A DNA stretch of 64,000 bases from the NCBI GenBank assembly GCA_000237975.1, contig CP003179.1, positions 434,001-498,000 on the forward strand, given 5' to 3'. Below the pieces are notes generated by a model. That model searched no databases and was not told the DNA's origin. It worked only from the letters and a program-made list of their open reading frames with translations. Below are positions 47,978 to 63,466 of the stretch, in pieces (the first letter of the stretch is position 1; the number at the start of each line of letters is the position of its first letter). Position numbers and translations under genes: made by a program. This DNA is from Sulfobacillus acidophilus DSM 10332 (lineage in GTDB: Bacteria > Bacillota > Sulfobacillia > Sulfobacillales > Sulfobacillaceae).

Positions 47978-48058
47978 TAATGATAAGCTGGCCGTAATGG
48001 AAAGTTGACGCGAGAAATGGCTGAGTGAGGCCATTTCTCCGTCGATCACTTTCCATTT
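47978..48058. repeat. RIT element 1, left end
   Basis: Sites at 47978-47988, 47995-48005 and inverted 48048-48058. Between the latter two lies a hairpin: GAGAAATGGC (48012-48021) pairs perfectly with GCCATTTCTC (48030-48039). Confidence 0.75.
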
Positions 48059-48062
48059 CATG

Positions 48063-48877
48063 TCACGAGGACCCGAGGCCTTTCAGCCATGTGAGTAACT
48101 CTGTGTTCGCTTGCCATGGAGGTAACGTTTCCGAAACGATACCGCCGCTATGGCGTTCCAAGGCCTTCCGCTTCATTTCGCTGTCGACCCGTGCATACAT
48201 TTCGGTGGTCTTGAGGTCGACATGGCCCAGAAGATCCCGGATATATACGAGATTCACTCCGGCCTGGAGCAAATGCATGGCCTTCGAATGGCGGAACCCA
48301 TGGGGCGACACCGTGTCCGGAAGGGTGCCCGGAGAAACCCGGGCGGCTTGTTGAACATACTTGGTGACGATATAGGCCACCCCTTCACGGGAGAGTTTGC
48401 TTCCCGCCCGGTTTTGAAACAACGGGTACGCACTCGCTTGGGGGTGGGTCAACTTGCGTTCCTGCCGATATTGCTCCAGGAGGCGCCCCATGGGCGGCAT
48501 TAGCGGCACAATCCGACTTTTTTGTCCCTTGCCCGTGAGCCGCATCGTGGATACGGGGCCCTCTTTGATATCCCCTGCGACGACGTCGCAGAGTTCCTGA
48601 ACCCGGGCGCCTGTATCATAAAGAAGGCTCAATAACACGGCATCCCGCCGCCCGCCAGGGACGGCCAGGTTGGGAAGGCTCAGAAGAAACTTCATCTGTT
48701 CGACGGTTAAATACGGCATTGGCCCTGAGGCCGTTTTTTTAAGAGGAATCGCCCGTAATTGCTGCGCCTGCATCATGAACTCCGGCTGCTCTCGTTGGAG
48801 ATACTGCACAAAGGCGTACAAGGCCGCCAAGCGGACATTCCGCGTGGACACGCTGCAGTGACGATGCGTTTCGATCC
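48063..48877 (-). pseudogene. ritC of RIT element 1, C-terminal part
   Basis: The catalytic part of a tyrosine recombinase: Arg in YDTGARVQELCDV, Lys strand MRLTGKGQKSRIVPL, HGFRHSKAMHLLQAG (His, Arg), LLGHVDLKTTEMYARV (His, nucleophile Tyr). The gene is split by the IS256 copy at 48878-50291. After removing it with one 9-bp target copy, the frame runs through as DWIETHRHCSVSTRNVRLAA, matching the intact ritC of element 2 (QWLEHERRSSAATRNVRMAA). So ritC was intact until this insertion. Confidence 0.88.
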
Positions 48878-50291
48878 GAGGTTGTCCCAGGTTTCGTGGA
48901 ATTTCGCTAGCGTATCCTTTCTCATGATTTAACCGATTTGCTCGGTTTTTTGTTCGGGTTTATGCGCCACTGCTGATTTTAAGGCCGTTTGCAACACGGG
49001 AATCTCGCGATAGCCCGGGATCCGCGTCAACGTGTCTTCGATGAAAAAGCTCGCCGACGCCAACCAGCGTAAGACTTGTTGCCCATTGGTCCAATGTTTG
49101 ACGTTCTGCGCATGGGTCCGAAATTGACTGTTAAGAGATTCCATGGCATTGGTGTTGGCCAACGTTTGGCGCAAGAGGCCCGGAAGACCCAAACGCTGCA
49201 CGGTGAGGGTCTCTTCCAACCCTTCTCGGAGGCTCCCGGCGGCGCCGGGATGGTCCCGTTCAAGCTCTTTCGCGAGCGCTTCTAATGCCTGGGCGGCCTT
49301 GTCCGCATCCGGTTCTTGATACGCTTTCCGTAAGCGCTGGCGGACACGATTTTCGGCCGATTTCGGCAGGTGGTCCAGCACATTCCGTTGCTTGTGAATT
49401 TGGCAGCGTTGGATGAGGACGCGATCCCCCCAGACCTCGCGCACCGCTTTGGCTAAGGCCTTGGCGCCATCGATGACCACGAGTAATCCGTGCGCGGCCG
49501 TCAGGCCGCGGGTGATCAGATCCTGTAATAAGGCCGTGACCACGGTATGATTTTCGGTGGCCCCTTCCACCAATCCCAGTACGCGTTTGTGGCCTTCCGC
49601 ATCAATCCCTAAGGCCCCGACCACCATGTGGTCGGCCACGCGCAAACCATCGATCATCACCACAACCCACGTCCGGTCATCCAACCGGCGTTGGAGGAAG
49701 CGGTCGAGGGCCTGTTGGGTGGCTTGGATAAAGCGCCGGCTCACCGTGCTTTTGCTGGGGCCCGGCTGCTCCATCGCGGATTCAAAGGCGGCATCGGCAT
49801 GGCGCTGCTGGCGGCTCGCTAAGCCATACAGCATCCGTTCCAGTACGGCTTGGGTCGCCAGCGTCGGGTCCTGAAACTGATGGTAGGTGTCTAACGGAAT
49901 TTCCTCCGAGCCATCGGCTGCCCGCACCCGTGGGTGCGAAACGGAGATTTTGCGATCCCCCAAAAAGACGCTCCCGACTTCGGTCCCGTGTCGGACCGCT
50001 TGGCGTTGCGGATCATGACGTCCTTTAGGCCCCGCTAACTGCTCCACCTCGGCCGCCATCATCTGTTGCAAGACCTGCAATCCGACCCGGATCGACAGCG
50101 CCAATAAGCCGTCTTCCGCATCCTGGAGAATGTCTACCCACGGCACGGTCAGCGTCTGTTCCGAGCGGGACTTTTTCGTTATACTGGAAGCCACTAGCGA
50201 TTCCTCCTTCATGATGGGTTAGACCTCTCTAGTAAACCAGAGAGCCATCGGGATCGCTAGTTTCAATTTCCACGAAAAATGGGGCATTCTC
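48878..50291 (-). mobile_element. IS256-family element, copy 1, with 9-bp target duplication
   Basis: Starts GAGGTTGTCCCAGG and ends with the imperfect complement of it, GGGGCATTCTC (inverse GAGAATGCCCCA). Directly flanked by TTTCGATCC at 48869-48877 and 50292-50300, an intact target duplication of the length expected for IS256. 1414 bases with one transposase gene. It splits ritC. Confidence 0.9.
48929..50212 (-). CDS. IS256-family transposase, copy 1
   Basis: A 427-residue mutator-type DDE transposase. Catalytic regions: WVVVMIDGLRVADHMVVGAL (first Asp), LLVVIDGAKALAKAVREVWG (second Asp), QRCQIHKQRNVLDHLPKS (C/H motif), and ANTNAMESLNSQFR (Glu in MESLN). Full length and apparently intact. 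The start codon is preceded by GGAGG (CGATTCCTCCTTCATG on the plus strand). About nine in ten residues match copy 2 at 53268-54551. It moves by cut-and-copy through a circular intermediate in the family. Confidence 0.95.
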   Translation of the reverse strand: MKEESLVASSITKKSRSEQTLTVPWVDILQDAEDGLLALSIRVGLQVLQQMMAAEVEQLAGPKGRHDPQRQAVRHGTEVGSVFLGDRKISVSHPRVRAADGSEEIPLDTYHQFQDPTLATQAVLERMLYGLASRQQRHADAAFESAMEQPGPSKSTVSRRFIQATQQALDRFLQRRLDDRTWVVVMIDGLRVADHMVVGALGIDAEGHKRVLGLVEGATENHTVVTALLQDLITRGLTAAHGLLVVIDGAKALAKAVREVWGDRVLIQRCQIHKQRNVLDHLPKSAENRVRQRLRKAYQEPDADKAAQALEALAKELERDHPGAAGSLREGLEETLTVQRLGLPGLLRQTLANTNAMESLNSQFRTHAQNVKHWTNGQQVLRWLASASFFIEDTLTRIPGYREIPVLQTALKSAVAHKPEQKTEQIG

Positions 50292-50514
50292 TTTCGATCC
50301 AGTCCAAGAAGTGCTCGATGGTTGGGCGCGTTAAATCCTGCAAGCGGATTTTATCGGGGGGCGTGGCACACTGGGTGTCAAAAAACTCGATAAGCAGTTT
50401 AAACATATCCCGATAGGACAGCACCGTATTCGTGCTTAATCCCCGCACCCCCGGGAGATACGTGGCCAAGTACTGTGACACGCGGTAGGCGAAATCAGTG
50501 GGTTGGGCCATCAT
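50292..50514 (-). pseudogene. ritC of RIT element 1, N-terminal part
   Basis: ATG 50514 opens MAQPTDFAYRVSQYLATYLP and LSTNTVLSYRDMFKLLIEFF, the SAM-like arm of a tyrosine recombinase, and the homology ends at DWIE at the IS256 boundary. The start overlaps the end of ritB by 20 bases. See the C-terminal part at 48063-48877. Confidence 0.85.
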
Positions 50515-51475
50515 TCACCTCCGGAATCGTTGTCCCGGTCACTTGAACGACCGCCGTGATCACCTCAGGATATAAGTCGGCGGTTAGCCGTACATACCCC
50601 TCCGTGGCCGTCGGGGAGGCATGGCCGACATAGGCGGACAAAATCGGGAGTGCCGCATATACATCAAGGCCTTCGTCCACAAGATGCTTCAGGGCCCGGA
50701 CACAAAACGTGTGTCGCAGATCGTGAACGCGCGGTCCGGTTCCCCGTCCCGCATGGGGTATCCCCGCACGCCACAAGCTCTGTCGGAACTGGCGATAAAT
50801 CCAATGGCGGCTGGGGGGCTGTCCATTCCGGGTTTCAAAAAACCACGTCGGAGCGGGCTGGCGCGTGAGCAGATGTGCCCGCCAGCGTTGTAGGCCGTCT
50901 CGGAGGGACGGCGAGACCGCGACTAGCCGATCCTTTCCCCCTTTGCTTTCGCGGATCAGAAGGGTCCCCCGCACCCAATCTACGTCGGCGAACCGGAGCT
51001 GACAGGCTTCGGACACGCGCAATCCCGTCCCATATAACAGCCGGAATAGCATGGGCAGCAGAAGATGCTTGTCGGTTCCCGGATAGACCTCCATCGTGTC
51101 ACACGCGTGAAAAAATCCGGTGATTTCCTTCTCGGAAAAGATATAGGGCACGTATGGTGCCGATTGGCGCTTCAAGGGGGGGAGCAAGGGCGTTATGTAG
51201 CCGCGAGATCGGGCCCATTGCAAAAACACTCGAAGACAGCTCACCCGGATCCGCTGGGTTCCCCAGCGTTCACCCGGCACCCGTGCGACCCATCGGTCGA
51301 CAACTGTCTGGGGAATGACGCGATCCCGGATGGGATCGTCCTGGGCGACTCGAGCGAGCCGGGCGAGCTGCTCCGATTCCACGCGATATCGGTAGCCAAG
51401 CGCCTGCTTGTGGGTCACGAACTCGTCGATGAGTCGACCGAGCTCACCGGGCAACGACGGACGGGGTGCCGCCAT
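50495..51475 (-). CDS. ritB: RIT element 1 tyrosine recombinase, ritB
   Basis: A 326-residue phage-integrase-type recombinase. SAM-like arm residues 10-95; catalytic domain with Arg in LLYGTGLRVSEACQLR, Lys in IRESKGGKDRLVAV, VHDLRHTFCVRAL (His-x-x-Arg), and AYVGHASPTATEGYVRL (His and Tyr nucleophile). Full length. The start ATG overlaps the stop of ritA by one base (TAATG). As the middle protein of a RIT it probably acts together with ritA and ritC on the end sites. Gene name by position in the trio. Confidence 0.9.
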   Translation of the reverse strand: MAAPRPSLPGELGRLIDEFVTHKQALGYRYRVESEQLARLARVAQDDPIRDRVIPQTVVDRWVARVPGERWGTQRIRVSCLRVFLQWARSRGYITPLLPPLKRQSAPYVPYIFSEKEITGFFHACDTMEVYPGTDKHLLLPMLFRLLYGTGLRVSEACQLRFADVDWVRGTLLIRESKGGKDRLVAVSPSLRDGLQRWRAHLLTRQPAPTWFFETRNGQPPSRHWIYRQFRQSLWRAGIPHAGRGTGPRVHDLRHTFCVRALKHLVDEGLDVYAALPILSAYVGHASPTATEGYVRLTADLYPEVITAVVQVTGTTIPEVNDGPTH

Positions 51476-52716
51476 TAGAATCCCTCCTTATCCACGTTCC
51501 AGTCGAACACGGGAACCGGCAGCGCACAACGACGGAGCTGCTCGACCCCGATTTTGAGGTATCCGCTCGTGGTTCGCGTATGCGTATGCCCGAGAATCTC
51601 GGCGATAACCGGTAGCGGCACATTGTCTTCGAGCAAGGCGCTGGCCAACGAATGCCGCATGGCATGCGGCCCCGAACGGTGGCCAGGCTTGGGTTCCACA
51701 CCTCCCCGGGCCATGTATCGTTTGACGATACCGGATAAGGCAGAGGCTGTGAGGGGTTGGATGGGCGGAACGTGGCGGAGAAAAATCACGTGGCCGTCGG
51801 TGGGCGGCCGACCATATTTGGCATAATCAATAATGGCCATTCCCACCTCTTCCGGCAGCGGCAAGATGACACGCTTTCCGGTCTTCTCCAACACTCGGTC
51901 AATCACGTTACTCTCCCAGCGGAGGTCGGCAAAGGTCAGGTGGCGAATGTCCCCGGACCGGAGACCCAGCCGTGCAGCGAGTAAGAGCATCGCGTAATCC
52001 CGCTTCCCGGTGGGATTGGCTCGATCGACCGCCCCGAGGATTTGCTCGATCTCCGCCGCCGAAAAAGTGGAAGGCAAATGCGCGTCCGGCGGCCGCCGGA
52101 CGTTGGGCACGGCCGGTGACCAATCCTGCGCGACCAGTCCCTGGGTATGCAGATATCGGAGAAAGACGCGCAGAGCGCCGAGCGCATTGTAGAGCGTCGC
52201 GGGCGTGTCGCTGCAGAGCATGTCCGTGTAGGCGAGAATCGTAGGGGCCGTGATTTGTGCGAACTCCGTCACATTGTGGTTTTCCAAGTACAGCAGAAAC
52301 TTCCCCAAGAATTTCTCATACGCTTGAAGCGTCACCGGCGACCGTTGCATGCGCTGGGCCGCTTGAAAATCGGTCAGAACGTCCGAATACCGCATGAGCA
52401 GGGAAACCGCCGACGTCCGGTACCGTGGTCTTACCATGCCGTGCAGGTAATACTCGTTGAGGACCGTGATGGCCCGAGCCCGGACCCTGTCCTCATTGGT
52501 GAGCGCGGTGAAGATCGTGATATGGTAAACCTCTTCCAGAAAGTCGAGCCCGACCTGGGTATCATAATGGAGGCCACGATCCGCCATATACCCGGCGAGC
52601 TGACCCCAGGGACGCCGGTAGCGATTGATAACGGGAGGACCATACCCCACCCGTTTTAATTCGCCTTCGACGCCTGCGAGGAGATCGGCTAGCGGAAACG
52701 AACATCGCTGGTTCAT
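51475..52716 (-). CDS. ritA: RIT element 1 tyrosine recombinase, ritA
   Basis: A 413-residue recombinase with an extra N-terminal region (about 110 residues) typical of the largest RIT protein. Catalytic residues: Arg in ARLGLRSGDIRHL, Lys in LEKTGKRVILPL, GPHAMRHSLASALL (His, Arg), and EILGHTHTRTTSGYLKIG (His and Tyr). ATG 52716 has AAGGAGG about 8 bases upstream. Full length and first in the trio. The unrelated-looking N-terminal part MNQRCSFPLADLLAGVEGEL aligns with the repaired N-terminus of ritA in element 2. Confidence 0.9.
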   Translation of the reverse strand: MNQRCSFPLADLLAGVEGELKRVGYGPPVINRYRRPWGQLAGYMADRGLHYDTQVGLDFLEEVYHITIFTALTNEDRVRARAITVLNEYYLHGMVRPRYRTSAVSLLMRYSDVLTDFQAAQRMQRSPVTLQAYEKFLGKFLLYLENHNVTEFAQITAPTILAYTDMLCSDTPATLYNALGALRVFLRYLHTQGLVAQDWSPAVPNVRRPPDAHLPSTFSAAEIEQILGAVDRANPTGKRDYAMLLLAARLGLRSGDIRHLTFADLRWESNVIDRVLEKTGKRVILPLPEEVGMAIIDYAKYGRPPTDGHVIFLRHVPPIQPLTASALSGIVKRYMARGGVEPKPGHRSGPHAMRHSLASALLEDNVPLPVIAEILGHTHTRTTSGYLKIGVEQLRRCALPVPVFDWNVDKEGF

Positions 52717-52777
52717 GTCATCTACCTCCTTGGTTGTCCTTGTGGGACAGCGCCACTATAGACCAGCCAGGAGGAAA

Positions 52778-52860
52778 TAATGTGAAGTTAAGCGGCCATT
52801 AGATGACGGATTTTCTGGCGTGGTGATGACCGACTGGCCATTACGGCCAGCTTATCATTA
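52778..52860. repeat. RIT element 1, right end
   Basis: Sites TAATGTGAAGT (52778-52788), ACTGGCCATTA (52833-52843) and GCTTATCATTA (52850-52860), with a 44-base spacer between the first two and 6 bases between the last two, exactly as in element 2. Confidence 0.75.
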
Positions 52861-58798: not shown

Positions 58799-59213
58799 GT
58801 GAAAAATATGAAAGAAATTGAGCGCATGGTGACGATGTTTTCGGAAGGGTATGCGATTGCCGCCATTGCCGAAACGCTCCATGTCGACCGTAAGACCGTT
58901 CGTAAGTATGTCTACCAGCAAGACTTTTCGGAACCGTTTCCCCAGAGGACCGGCCGCAAGTCTTGATCCCTTCAAACCGACGATTCAAGCCTGGCTGGCG
59001 GAGGATGCCCGCGTGCGCTATAAGCAACGGCATACCGCTGAACGCGTGTACCAACGCCTTCAAGACGAATATGGGGACCGCTTTACGTGTTCCTATTCCA
59101 CGGTGCAACGCTTTCGGGGAGGTGATCCGATACGCCGAGCTCTTTGAGCGATTTAAGGTCCACTATGGGTTCGATGCGACGTTTTGCAATCCGGATGCGG
59201 GGCACGAAAAGGG
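58799..59213 (+). pseudogene. istA: istA of IS21 element 2, 5' part
   Basis: GTG 58799 with GAGAGGAG upstream gives MFSEGYAIAAIAETLHVDRK and TVRKYVYQQDF, the helix-turn-helix. One base is out near 58955, so the sequence continues in another frame with SLDPFKPTIQAWLAEDARVR and YSTVQRF. About 100 residues including the first two catalytic Asp are missing before YAELFERFKVHYGFDATFCN and AGHEKG, where RIT element 2 is inserted. Confidence 0.82.
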
Positions 59214-59294
59214 TTATGGAAAGCGCGCGATAATGTAAAGTTGGCGGAGAATCGCCGCGTGGGCGGCGATAGCCTGTGTGGCGACTTTACATTA
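59214..59294. repeat. RIT element 2, left end
   Basis: Sites TTATGGAAAGC (59214-59224), TAATGTAAAGT (59231-59241) and inverted ACTTTACATTA (59284-59294); between the last two a hairpin ATCGCCGC (59251-59258) with GCGGCGAT (59263-59270). Confidence 0.78.
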
Positions 59295-60331: not shown

Positions 60332-61283
60332 TCACCTCCGGGAACATGGACGCCGTTAGGGTGTTCACCTGAGACAGTAGGGCCGGATACTGATCGGCCA
60401 CAAGCCGAACGTAATGATCGGTGGCCTCCAGTGATTGGTGGCCAAGATATTCCGAGAGAATCGGTAACGCGTAGTAGAGATCGAGGCCCGATTCGGCCAT
60501 GGCCACCAAGGAACGCACCGCAAAAACATGTCTCAGATCATGTAATCGCGGCCCCTGTCCTTTGCCTCCATGGGAAATCCCCGCGTCCCGGAGGACCCGT
60601 CGAAATCCTTCATAAATCGTTTTGGCGTGGCAGGGGCGACCATTGCGCCGCGCAAAGAACGGGGCGTCCACCGTCGGCTGAATCCCGAGCGCCTGGCGGT
60701 ATTGCCTCAAGACATCCGCCAACGAATCGGCAAAGGGCACCAACCGTTCCCGTCCATTTTTGCTGTGGCGCACGACCAGATATTGCTCTTCTAGGTGGAC
60801 ATCCTGAACCCGCAGGGCCACCGCTTCGCCGACGCGGATCCCGGTTCCATAGAGGAGGCGCAACAGAGCGGGTAGCACATTGACCGTCGTGTGAGGGACC
60901 CGCCCAATATCCAATCGATCGGCGGCCCCCAACAGGGCATCGATTTCCTGGGGGGAGAAAATATACGGGGTGAATGTGCTTCGATAGGCCCGCGGCAACC
61001 CCGGTACGTACGAGGGGTAACCCATCTCATTAAGAAAGAGGGCGAATTGAATGAGGTACATGACGCGCCGGTAACAGGTACTGTCCGATTCGTTCGGGCG
61101 CTTTAGGGCCCACTGTTCGGCCAACGCCGGCGTGATGCCGATGGCGGTGTCACCGCGTTCCACGGTAAGGTGGTCAAAGAGGCGAAACGTGTATTCGGCA
61201 CTACGGAATTGATATCCCAGACTCCGCTTGAATTCGACGAACTGCTTAAGTAGAGGGCTGTAGGGACCCTGAAAGGGGCTCAT
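60312..61283 (-). CDS. ritB: RIT element 2 tyrosine recombinase, ritB
   Basis: A 323-residue recombinase with catalytic Arg in LLYGTGIRVGEAVALR, Lys in VRHSKNGRERLVPF, RLHDLRHVFAVRSL (His, Arg), and YLGHQSLEATDHYVRL (His, Tyr). Start ATG 61283 overlaps the stop of ritA (ATGA) and has GGGGAGG 8 bases upstream; a longer frame to 61340 lies inside ritA and is not used. Intact. Confidence 0.92.
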   Translation of the reverse strand: MSPFQGPYSPLLKQFVEFKRSLGYQFRSAEYTFRLFDHLTVERGDTAIGITPALAEQWALKRPNESDSTCYRRVMYLIQFALFLNEMGYPSYVPGLPRAYRSTFTPYIFSPQEIDALLGAADRLDIGRVPHTTVNVLPALLRLLYGTGIRVGEAVALRVQDVHLEEQYLVVRHSKNGRERLVPFADSLADVLRQYRQALGIQPTVDAPFFARRNGRPCHAKTIYEGFRRVLRDAGISHGGKGQGPRLHDLRHVFAVRSLVAMAESGLDLYYALPILSEYLGHQSLEATDHYVRLVADQYPALLSQVNTLTASMFPEVSDCATD

Positions 61284-62538
61284 CGAGAGGACCTCCCCAC
61301 ATAAAATGCCGGCGGTACCGCCGGCACTTTCAACGCGCATTGACGCAGGGCCTGGAGATCAATACGCAGGTAAAACCGGGCGCTCTCCGTACTCCGGTGA
61401 CCCAAGACTGCGGCGATGACGGGCACCGGCGTCTTTTTGGCGAGCAATACGCCCGCCAGGCTATGGCGGAGGGCATGTGGACCATGGCGGCGCTCCTTCT
61501 CGAACACGATCCCGGCCCGGCGGAGGTAGAGACTGACAATGCTGTGCAGGGTGGTCCGGTTGAGTCGGTCATACGGGGGATTCACGTGCAGAAAAATGAA
61601 GGGCAGTTCGGAGACCGGTCGGCCGTATTTCAGATAATCAATGAGTGCGGCTCCGACGTCCGCGAGAAGTGGGAGTTCTATTCGTTCTCCAGTTTTTCGC
61701 TGGTTCAGGATAATCACGCTGTCTTCCCAGCGAAGATTCTCGAAGCCGAGGTCACAGACATCAGTGGCTCTCAGCCCTAGGCGGGCTGTGATTAAGACCA
61801 TGGCATAATCACGTTTACCTTTGGGACTACTCCGATCGATGGCCGCGATGAGGGCCGCGATCTCATCGCGCGTATAGGTCGAGGGGAGCACCGGCTGCTT
61901 GGAATACTGGTCGCGGGGGACCAGCGGGGACCCGTCTTCTGCCGCCAATCCGCGATCATAGAGATACCGCAGAAATCCTTTCACGATGGAGAGACGCCGA
62001 TGTCGAATGTGTGGCGTGCAAAACCCGAGTGTGGCGGTATACGAGATGACGACGGTCGCCGTGATGGCGTGCACGTCGGCTATGTCGTGTGTGTCTAGAT
62101 AAGCCAGGAAATGCTGCAAATCCTTGTGGTATGCGGTCAGCGTCCCGGAGCTCAGACCAAACGCCTTTTTTTCCGCGATGTAAGCCTGCATGGTCTGCCC
62201 CACCGCTCCCCATAGGTCGTAAAACTTCTGCCCCCGTCGAAATTTAATCATCCCTGTTTCGAGAAACTCGGTGAGGACGTTGGTGCAGTAGATGATGTCC
62301 TGCTCCCACCGGTCGAGGTTCTCAAACTTGCGGGAGCCGATCAGGTGGTAAATGAACGCCTCCCCGCACATCGCCGAATAATTGACGTCCCCCCGGTCGT
62401 TCATAAAGGTCCCGAGTCGTTGCCATGCGGACCGATATTGGCTCATGCGGGACTGCGGGACTCCGAATAGCCCAGCTTTTGTAAATAACGTAACACGGCC
62501 GCCGTGACGGCGGCCAATGTCTGGGACTGCTCTGCCAT
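61280..62538 (-). pseudogene. ritA: RIT element 2 tyrosine recombinase ritA, inactivated by an 8-bp duplication
   Basis: ATG 62538 opens MAEQSQTLAAVTAAVLRYLQ and KLGYSES, matching the start of ritA in element 1. The gene is then shifted by an exact tandem duplication of TGCGGGAC (plus strand 62446-62453 and 62454-62461); removing one copy restores the frame into RMSQYRSAWQRLGTFMNDRG. Downstream, the catalytic set is complete: ARLGLRATDVCDL, GPHALRHSLAGVLL, VLGHRSTESARFYLRI. A long frame read from 62746 is an artefact of the shift. Confidence 0.85.
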
Positions 62539-62594
62539 AGGATGACCTCCTCGAGGATTGTGGCTTGATTGCCTCCATCACTATAGGGGTCAGA

Positions 62595-62677
62595 TAATGT
62601 GAAGTAAATGGACATGGATGCTCCGCATGGCGGGGCGATTCCCCGTCAAACTTTACATTATCGCGCGCTTTCCATAA
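62595..62677. repeat. RIT element 2, right end
   Basis: Sites TAATGTGAAGT (62595-62605), ACTTTACATTA (62650-62660), GCTTTCCATAA (62667-62677), spacers 44 and 6 bases. Confidence 0.78.
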
Positions 62678-62709
62678 CCCTTTTAATGCAAAGCTTTGCA
62701 TTAAAAGGG
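62678..62709. repeat. 32-bp perfect palindrome at the right RIT/IS21 junction
   Basis: Each half is CCCTTTTAATGCAAAG or its complement. The right arm's AAAAGGG (62703-62709) is istA sequence; the left arm's CCCTTTT is the complement of the same target seen at the left junction. Confidence 0.85.
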
Positions 62710-63466
62710 CAATGTGGAGGCGAATATCGGCTACTTGCGCCGCCATGTGATGGTGCCCCCGCCGATTTTACAGAGTTGGGACGGGGCGAATGACGCCGCC
62801 TTAGCGCAGGCCCCCACACTCTGGACACGGCCGCACTACAAAAAGGGATTGCCCATTGCCGAGCTTTTTGAAACGGATCGGAAAGCCTTACGGGCCTTAC
62901 CGACGAAACCGTTTCACCCCGTGCGCTATCTACGGGTCCAGACAGACGGATACGGGAAGTTTCGCTTGGATGCCCATCACTGGTATTCTTCCGGACCGGA
63001 GTGGGCGCGACAAGAGTTGGTGGTGGCAATCGGCGCGTTCACCGGGGTGCCCTACACACCCGATGGCACGCCGATTACCCGTCATGATCGACAATACGGC
63101 GAGACTCGGACCGACACCATCGACCCCCGTACCACCCTGCACCGATTATCACGGAGTCCCGGGGCTTTCCGCAATAGTCCTCTGCGCGGAAACTTACCGG
63201 AGCCCTTGGTGACCACATTGGATACCTATGCTCGCCAAGACCTCAAAGGCTGCCTTCAGGCACTGGCTGACGTGACGGAACGTTACGGATTCGATTTGGC
63301 GATTCAAGCGCTGGAGAACGCCGTGCAACACCACCAAATTGCTTACCCCGATATTCTTGTGCGCGCCGCCCGAATGGCGGAGTGGCCCTATCCCGAAGCG
63401 CAGACGGTGGACTTGAAGACCTATAACGTCTTGATCCCTTCCCGTGAAATGGAGGTGTCCCCTTGA
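62710..63466 (+). pseudogene. istA: istA of IS21 element 2, 3' part
   Basis: Resumes directly after the RIT insertion with NVEANIGYLRRHVMVPPPIL (the region after the catalytic Glu), and continues KGLPIAELFETDRKALRALP, HHWYSSGPEWARQEL and FRNSPLRGNLPEPLVTTLD to a stop at 63466. The reading frame of this part is intact. It overlaps istB by TTGA. Confidence 0.82.

Follow-up and report, generated by a model that had tools for sequence, protein, structure and literature searches.

A one-sided palindrome beside RIT elements as a probable attachment region with two crossover points

The palindrome that adjoins RIT element 2 of Sulfobacillus acidophilus DSM 10332 is very probably the element's own attachment region: the circular form would be joined through it and would thereby hold two mirror-image crossover points, either of which could be used. 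The window analysed here is a stretch of 64,000 nucleotides (C1:434001-498000) from a host genome of 3.56 Mb in 2 contigs, and the features at and around the element are collected in Table 1.

Table 1. Features of RIT element 2 and its surroundings, in window coordinates
Feature	Position	Strand	Remarks
Left overlap AAAGGG, non-palindrome side	59208..59213	+	Also present in the empty IS21 site on C2
RIT element 2 proper, 3464 bp, TTATGG...CCATAA	59214..62677	-	Terminal inverted repeats 59214-59242 / 62649-62677; 99% identical second copy
ritC (third recombinase gene), tyrosine recombinase, 341 aa	59306..60331	-	Phage_integrase 2.9e-26
ritB (second recombinase gene), tyrosine recombinase, ORF 342 aa	60312..61340	-	Phage_integrase 2.3e-25
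ritA (first recombinase gene), conserved part, tyrosine recombinase	61280..62443	-	Phage_integrase
Inner overlap CCCTTT (AAAGGG read toward the element), element-carried	62678..62683	-	
Palindrome half-site TAATGCAAAG	62684..62693	+	Similar to element end repeats TTATGGAAAG and ATAATGTAAAG
Palindrome half-site, mirror copy	62694..62703	-	CTTTGCATTA on the plus strand
Distal overlap AAAGGG	62704..62709	+	Borders interrupted istA (CAATGTGGAGG from 62710)
Downstream part of interrupted IS21 istA	62710..63466	+	IS21 family transposase; KGNVE motif split by the RIT between KG and NVE
istB, after istA	from 63463		IstB

RIT element 2, its palindrome and the empty site

RIT element 2 is an ordinary member of the known RIT family. 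Its three adjacent, overlapping tyrosine-recombinase genes, named ritA, ritB and ritC by transcription order (hence a "ritA end" at the first gene and a "ritC end" at the last), run in one direction, all match Phage_integrase, and occupy an element of about 3.5 kb with terminal inverted repeats and nothing else between its ends. The catalytic R..HxxR..H..Y pattern is present in all three translations (LGLR/HALRH/GH/FY; GIR/HDLRH/GH/HY; GAR/HGLRH/GH/IY). An extra N-terminal domain has been stated for RitA (PMC8138268), and the first protein here has one. Mobility is evident from two copies in two IS21 elements together with one empty IS21 site. In both copies (the second being L042) an 8-bp tandem repeat, AGTCCCGC, lies near the ritA start (window ~62440-62540) and changes the reading frame between the likely start codon and the conserved part, with an in-frame ATG downstream; the copies have moved or spread carrying this frame shift.

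The palindrome (62678-62709) is perfect, 32 bp long with 16-bp arms, CCCTTTTAATGCAAAG and CTTTGCATTAAAAGGG, and the chance expectation for such a structure is ~1.5e-5 per 64 kb. At the left junction the heptamer AAAAGGG occurs once (59207-59213), and the element end TTATGGAAAG starts directly after it, at 59214. Both features are present as a previous sequence-only reading had described them. Its further claim, that the flank right outside each RIT end is the same sequence inverted, is borne out by an inverted repeat of 41 nt with 95% complementarity (59202-59242 / 62649-62689), which places the same first heptamer, inverted, outside each end. The functional overlap is, more exactly, the 6 bp AAAGGG, the seventh base, A, being common to the half-site (...CATTA) and the target (...CACGA).

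An empty copy of the IS21 site on contig C2 of the same genome reads GGGGCACGAAAAGGGCAATGTGG and has no palindrome, while the window junctions read GGGGCACGAAAAGGG-TTATGG...CCATAA-CCCTTTTAATGCAAAGCTTTGCATTAAAAGGG-CAATGTGG. A second RIT, 99% identical (C1:3050446-3053923), occupies this istA site as well, pointing the other way; the istA flanks are the same, and CCCTTTTAATGCAAAGCTTTACATAAAAAGGG again lies on the downstream side of istA. From the empty site and the inverted second copy it follows that the palindrome arrived with the element; since it lies on the same istA side in both copies, that side is set by the target and not by the orientation of the element. Judged from these sequences, the usual overlap duplication is confined to the last AAAGGG, and the rest of the palindrome, including the inner CCCTTT, is element-borne. 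The sequence-only reading had named a palindrome already present in the empty site as what would refute its proposal, and the empty site leaves it unrefuted. Of the two mechanisms folded into that proposal, a circle with a palindromic centre fits the evidence, while a cut-and-rejoin step making an inverted copy of the target is not supported, the inner CCCTTT being carried by the element.

Junctions of related RIT elements

A total of 133 RITs were collected from the genomes of the phylum, from 84,980 bacterial and archaeal species genomes and from plasmids. Scanning genome contigs with the first recombinase as a lone protein query gave no matches; an aligned query did find RITs. Ends and flanks were recognisable in 79 junction pairs, which were scored by a scan around the inverted repeat. 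In this comparison of relatives, also proposed in the sequence-only reading, a palindrome stood at exactly one end in 67 of the 79 pairs (40 at the ritA end, 27 at the ritC end) and at both ends in 2, and the remaining 10 were uncalled, some having mis-set ends and some apparently no palindrome. By a motif-free, pure-palindrome criterion 57 of 76 pairs passed, against 2.3% per end at random positions. The one-sided palindrome accompanies RITs of many phyla, in many targets, and its distance from them is fixed.

The usual arrangement is overlap(6)-TTATGnnAAG.CTTnnCATAA-overlap(6)-TTATGnnAAG(element). The palindrome half-sites differ from the element end repeats by 2.1 mismatches of 10 (shuffled, 6.9), a conservation that arises partly by construction because the expected motif enters part of the palindrome score. 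Given this resemblance, the palindrome is best read as two back-to-back recombinase half-sites.

Four target motifs recur: the KGxxE codons of transposases (n=12), PQGG of group II intron reverse transcriptases (n=12), and Walker A (n=11) and Walker B (n=3) of IstB. In these 38 insertions, counted without correction for relatedness but from widely differing hosts, flanks and target genes, it keeps within each motif to one side of the target in every case (12/12, 12/12, 11/11 and 3/3 for the palindrome), while the orientation of the element is mixed (7/5, 7/5, 4/7 and 2/1). Insertions into a plasmid "strawberry notch" helicase gene likewise combine a constant palindrome side with either element orientation; near-identical RITs on alphaproteobacterial plasmids (L082-L098, L194-L199) occupy the same codon pair of this gene in both orientations.

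Where the palindrome is imperfect, the order of its halves is fixed relative to the element, at whichever end it stands, in G234 (four copies) and in G206, G089 and G116 (two each). The same holds for the Sphingobium plasmid elements in all but one, L094 on pTK1, whose palindrome is flipped relative to the element. A search for empty sites of the G206, G234 and G035 insertions, within their genomes or families, yielded none. The copies of the overlap disagree at position 1 in 30 of 67 cases and at position 4 in 35 of 67, and at positions 5 and 6 in 7 and 6; in the three largest motif groups, positions 1 and 4 fall on the third base of a codon.

Some loci had unusual arrangements. L127 and L138 have palindromes at both ends; L127 is flanked on either side by the upstream half of a group II intron reverse transcriptase gene, which is consistent with recombination between two copies. 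On either side of RIT1 (window 47978-52860) stands the same non-palindrome IS66 flank, and on either side of its twin ~26 kb further (C1:512637-516246; the pair L044, L045) stands the palindrome (CTAATGTGTAG.CTACACATTAG). The pair resembles the reciprocal products of recombination between two oppositely oriented RIT copies; the two now point the same way, with ~26 kb between them that include a CO-dehydrogenase-like operon. That they bracket an integrated plasmid is unsupported by the intervening genes. In L067, L200 and L201 a RIT subfamily lies directly beside the end of another, different RIT-like element (TTATGGAAAGTCCGACATAATGTAAAG), and is thus nested. One RIT, with flanks that are identical too, occurs in genomes of two different families (L075 in G070, L076 in G089) and represents a shared or recently transferred insertion.

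A proposed two-core circle and competing explanations

We infer a circle, its two crossover points and which recombinase acts where. The joint of the circular intermediate would read ritC end - overlap(6) - half-site.half-site - overlap(6) - ritA end, and so would hold two mirror-image cores, in each of which a 6-bp overlap separates a half-site of the element end from one of the palindrome. Insertion would proceed by tyrosine-recombinase crossover between the 6-bp motif of the target and either core, and the core used would decide the orientation of the element. Because both overlaps point inward, the palindrome would always come to lie on the same side of the target. Such a circle predicts one-sidedness, both orientations and an asymmetry fixed to the element; the reversed L094 would be the outcome expected from recombination between the two cores. 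A joint-like pattern was sought in 398 genomes, viral contigs and the ends of short contigs and no circle joint was found, the 3 viral matches being integrated or nested copies.

During insertion the 6 bp of the target probably remain at the non-palindrome junction and the old 6 bp of the element move to the far edge of the palindrome, a rule read from few cases; on excision the circle would take the 6 bp of the non-palindrome side, as reported for SE elements (strand-biased circularizing integrative elements). As all overlaps in the window are AAAGGG, the rule is unreadable there, and it is in related RITs that it is followed. The empty strawberry-notch site (pCHQ1, pTomMM15c; ~91-92% identical) has GATCGC, which is found at the non-palindrome junction in all four of L088, L093, L196 and L089; their far sides read GATCGC, GATCTC, GATCGT and GATGCC, matching in one of four. 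In JS3065, L089 and L092 have common inner (AACCGC) and far (GATGCC) overlaps, and their target-side overlaps differ. Three same-genome pairs can be read under the rule as one hop of the same element (L091 to L196, L059 to L060, L052b to L053). Moreover, in L058 the far overlap GGTTAA would disrupt Walker A, while the non-palindrome overlap CGGGAA preserves it. The target-side overlap of L047, AAAAGT, fits the rule poorly, and in the rhodobacterial empty strawberry-notch sites the 6 bp are too variable to assign an overlap.

Two further readings together have a negligible probability, a palindrome already there in the IS21 target and a regulatory palindrome or terminator without relation to the RIT: short palindromes are frequent in bacterial DNA, but the empty site has none, and RITs of many phyla have one at a fixed distance in many targets. 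A more specific rival is insertion in one orientation followed by an in-place flip of the element between its inverted end sites, the palindrome and flanks staying fixed. The observed mix of orientations beside a palindrome that keeps to one side of the target would result from this too, and L094 has the reversed palindrome that it would leave. However, a flip would reverse the asymmetry relative to the element, which is constant in G234, G206, G089, G116 and, with one exception, the Sphingobium set; we regard it as improbable. The palindrome of the RIT element 2 pair is itself too symmetric to discriminate between a flip and the two-core route.

It is also unlikely, if somewhat less so, that RITs follow a single-strand route like that of integron cassettes, in which one strand folds through the palindrome and the hairpin stem serves as the recombination site. 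The joint deduced from the window sequence would indeed form a perfect hairpin (-52.1 kcal/mol, z -17.8), and the overlap exchange matches that of SEs, for which one-strand exchange was proposed (PMC10214605). Against this, unequal overlaps and imperfect arms, which would be mismatches in the stem, are common (three different overlaps in 26 of 67), each double-stranded core is complete without folding, and for SEs a later study favours double-stranded circles (PMC10214605). A hairpin intermediate is not needed to explain the junctions.

For the two-core circle extended to RITs as a class, the balance tilts slightly in favour: a two-point palindromic attachment region, an orientation given by the point used, a strand-biased 6-bp exchange, and an aim at the codons of conserved motifs (KGxxE, Walker A/B, PQGG) of other mobile elements with third-codon-position differences tolerated. 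The rule read from the junctions also suggests a specialisation of RITs on such motifs of other mobile elements, which would make them in effect transposon parasites.

Significance and comparison with known systems

RITs are widespread, and, Ricker et al. 2013 (pmid 23628708) aside, no demonstration of how they move was found in the literature. The junction rule would make every sequenced copy evidence on the mechanism and, if true, each copy a readable record of its previous targets. The attachment-site model is simple and testable and has defined ends, where earlier work reported variable ones; a two-way attachment site would be an unusual solution for a tyrosine recombinase.

RIT element 2 shares with described RIT elements three consecutive overlapping tyrosine-recombinase genes, a length of ~3.5 kb, terminal inverted repeats and a location often within the genes of a different mobile element. 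One sentence in Van Houdt et al. 2012 (PMC3414803) notes that the RIT genes are flanked by an inverted repeat and by an "overlapping palindromic sequence". With the 2013 RIT paper outside the comparison, no description of a one-sided rule, two-core joint, freedom of orientation with a fixed target side or 6-bp exchange was found in the literature, and the general junction rule appears both useful and undescribed.

The rule links RITs to SEs, which likewise have a 6-bp spacer between inverted end motifs, keep the 6 bp of the target at one junction and those of the element at the other, and form circles taking the 6 bp of one side (PMC10214605). Unlike RIT element 2, SEs have four genes (two recombinases and two others), and their joint contains one core (C-6bp-C'), with no second palindromic core. 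GInts also have three recombinase-related genes and a circular intermediate (PMC5385486), which for RITs we only infer; they differ in a fourth gene, ginD, which is essential in GInts, while a check for a fourth gene between the ends of RIT element 2 found none. Integron gene cassettes are alike in combining a palindromic attachment site with a tyrosine recombinase. Cassettes need an external IntI and an attC that is imperfect and folded. RIT element 2, unlike them, brings its own recombinases and is aimed at conserved coding motifs.
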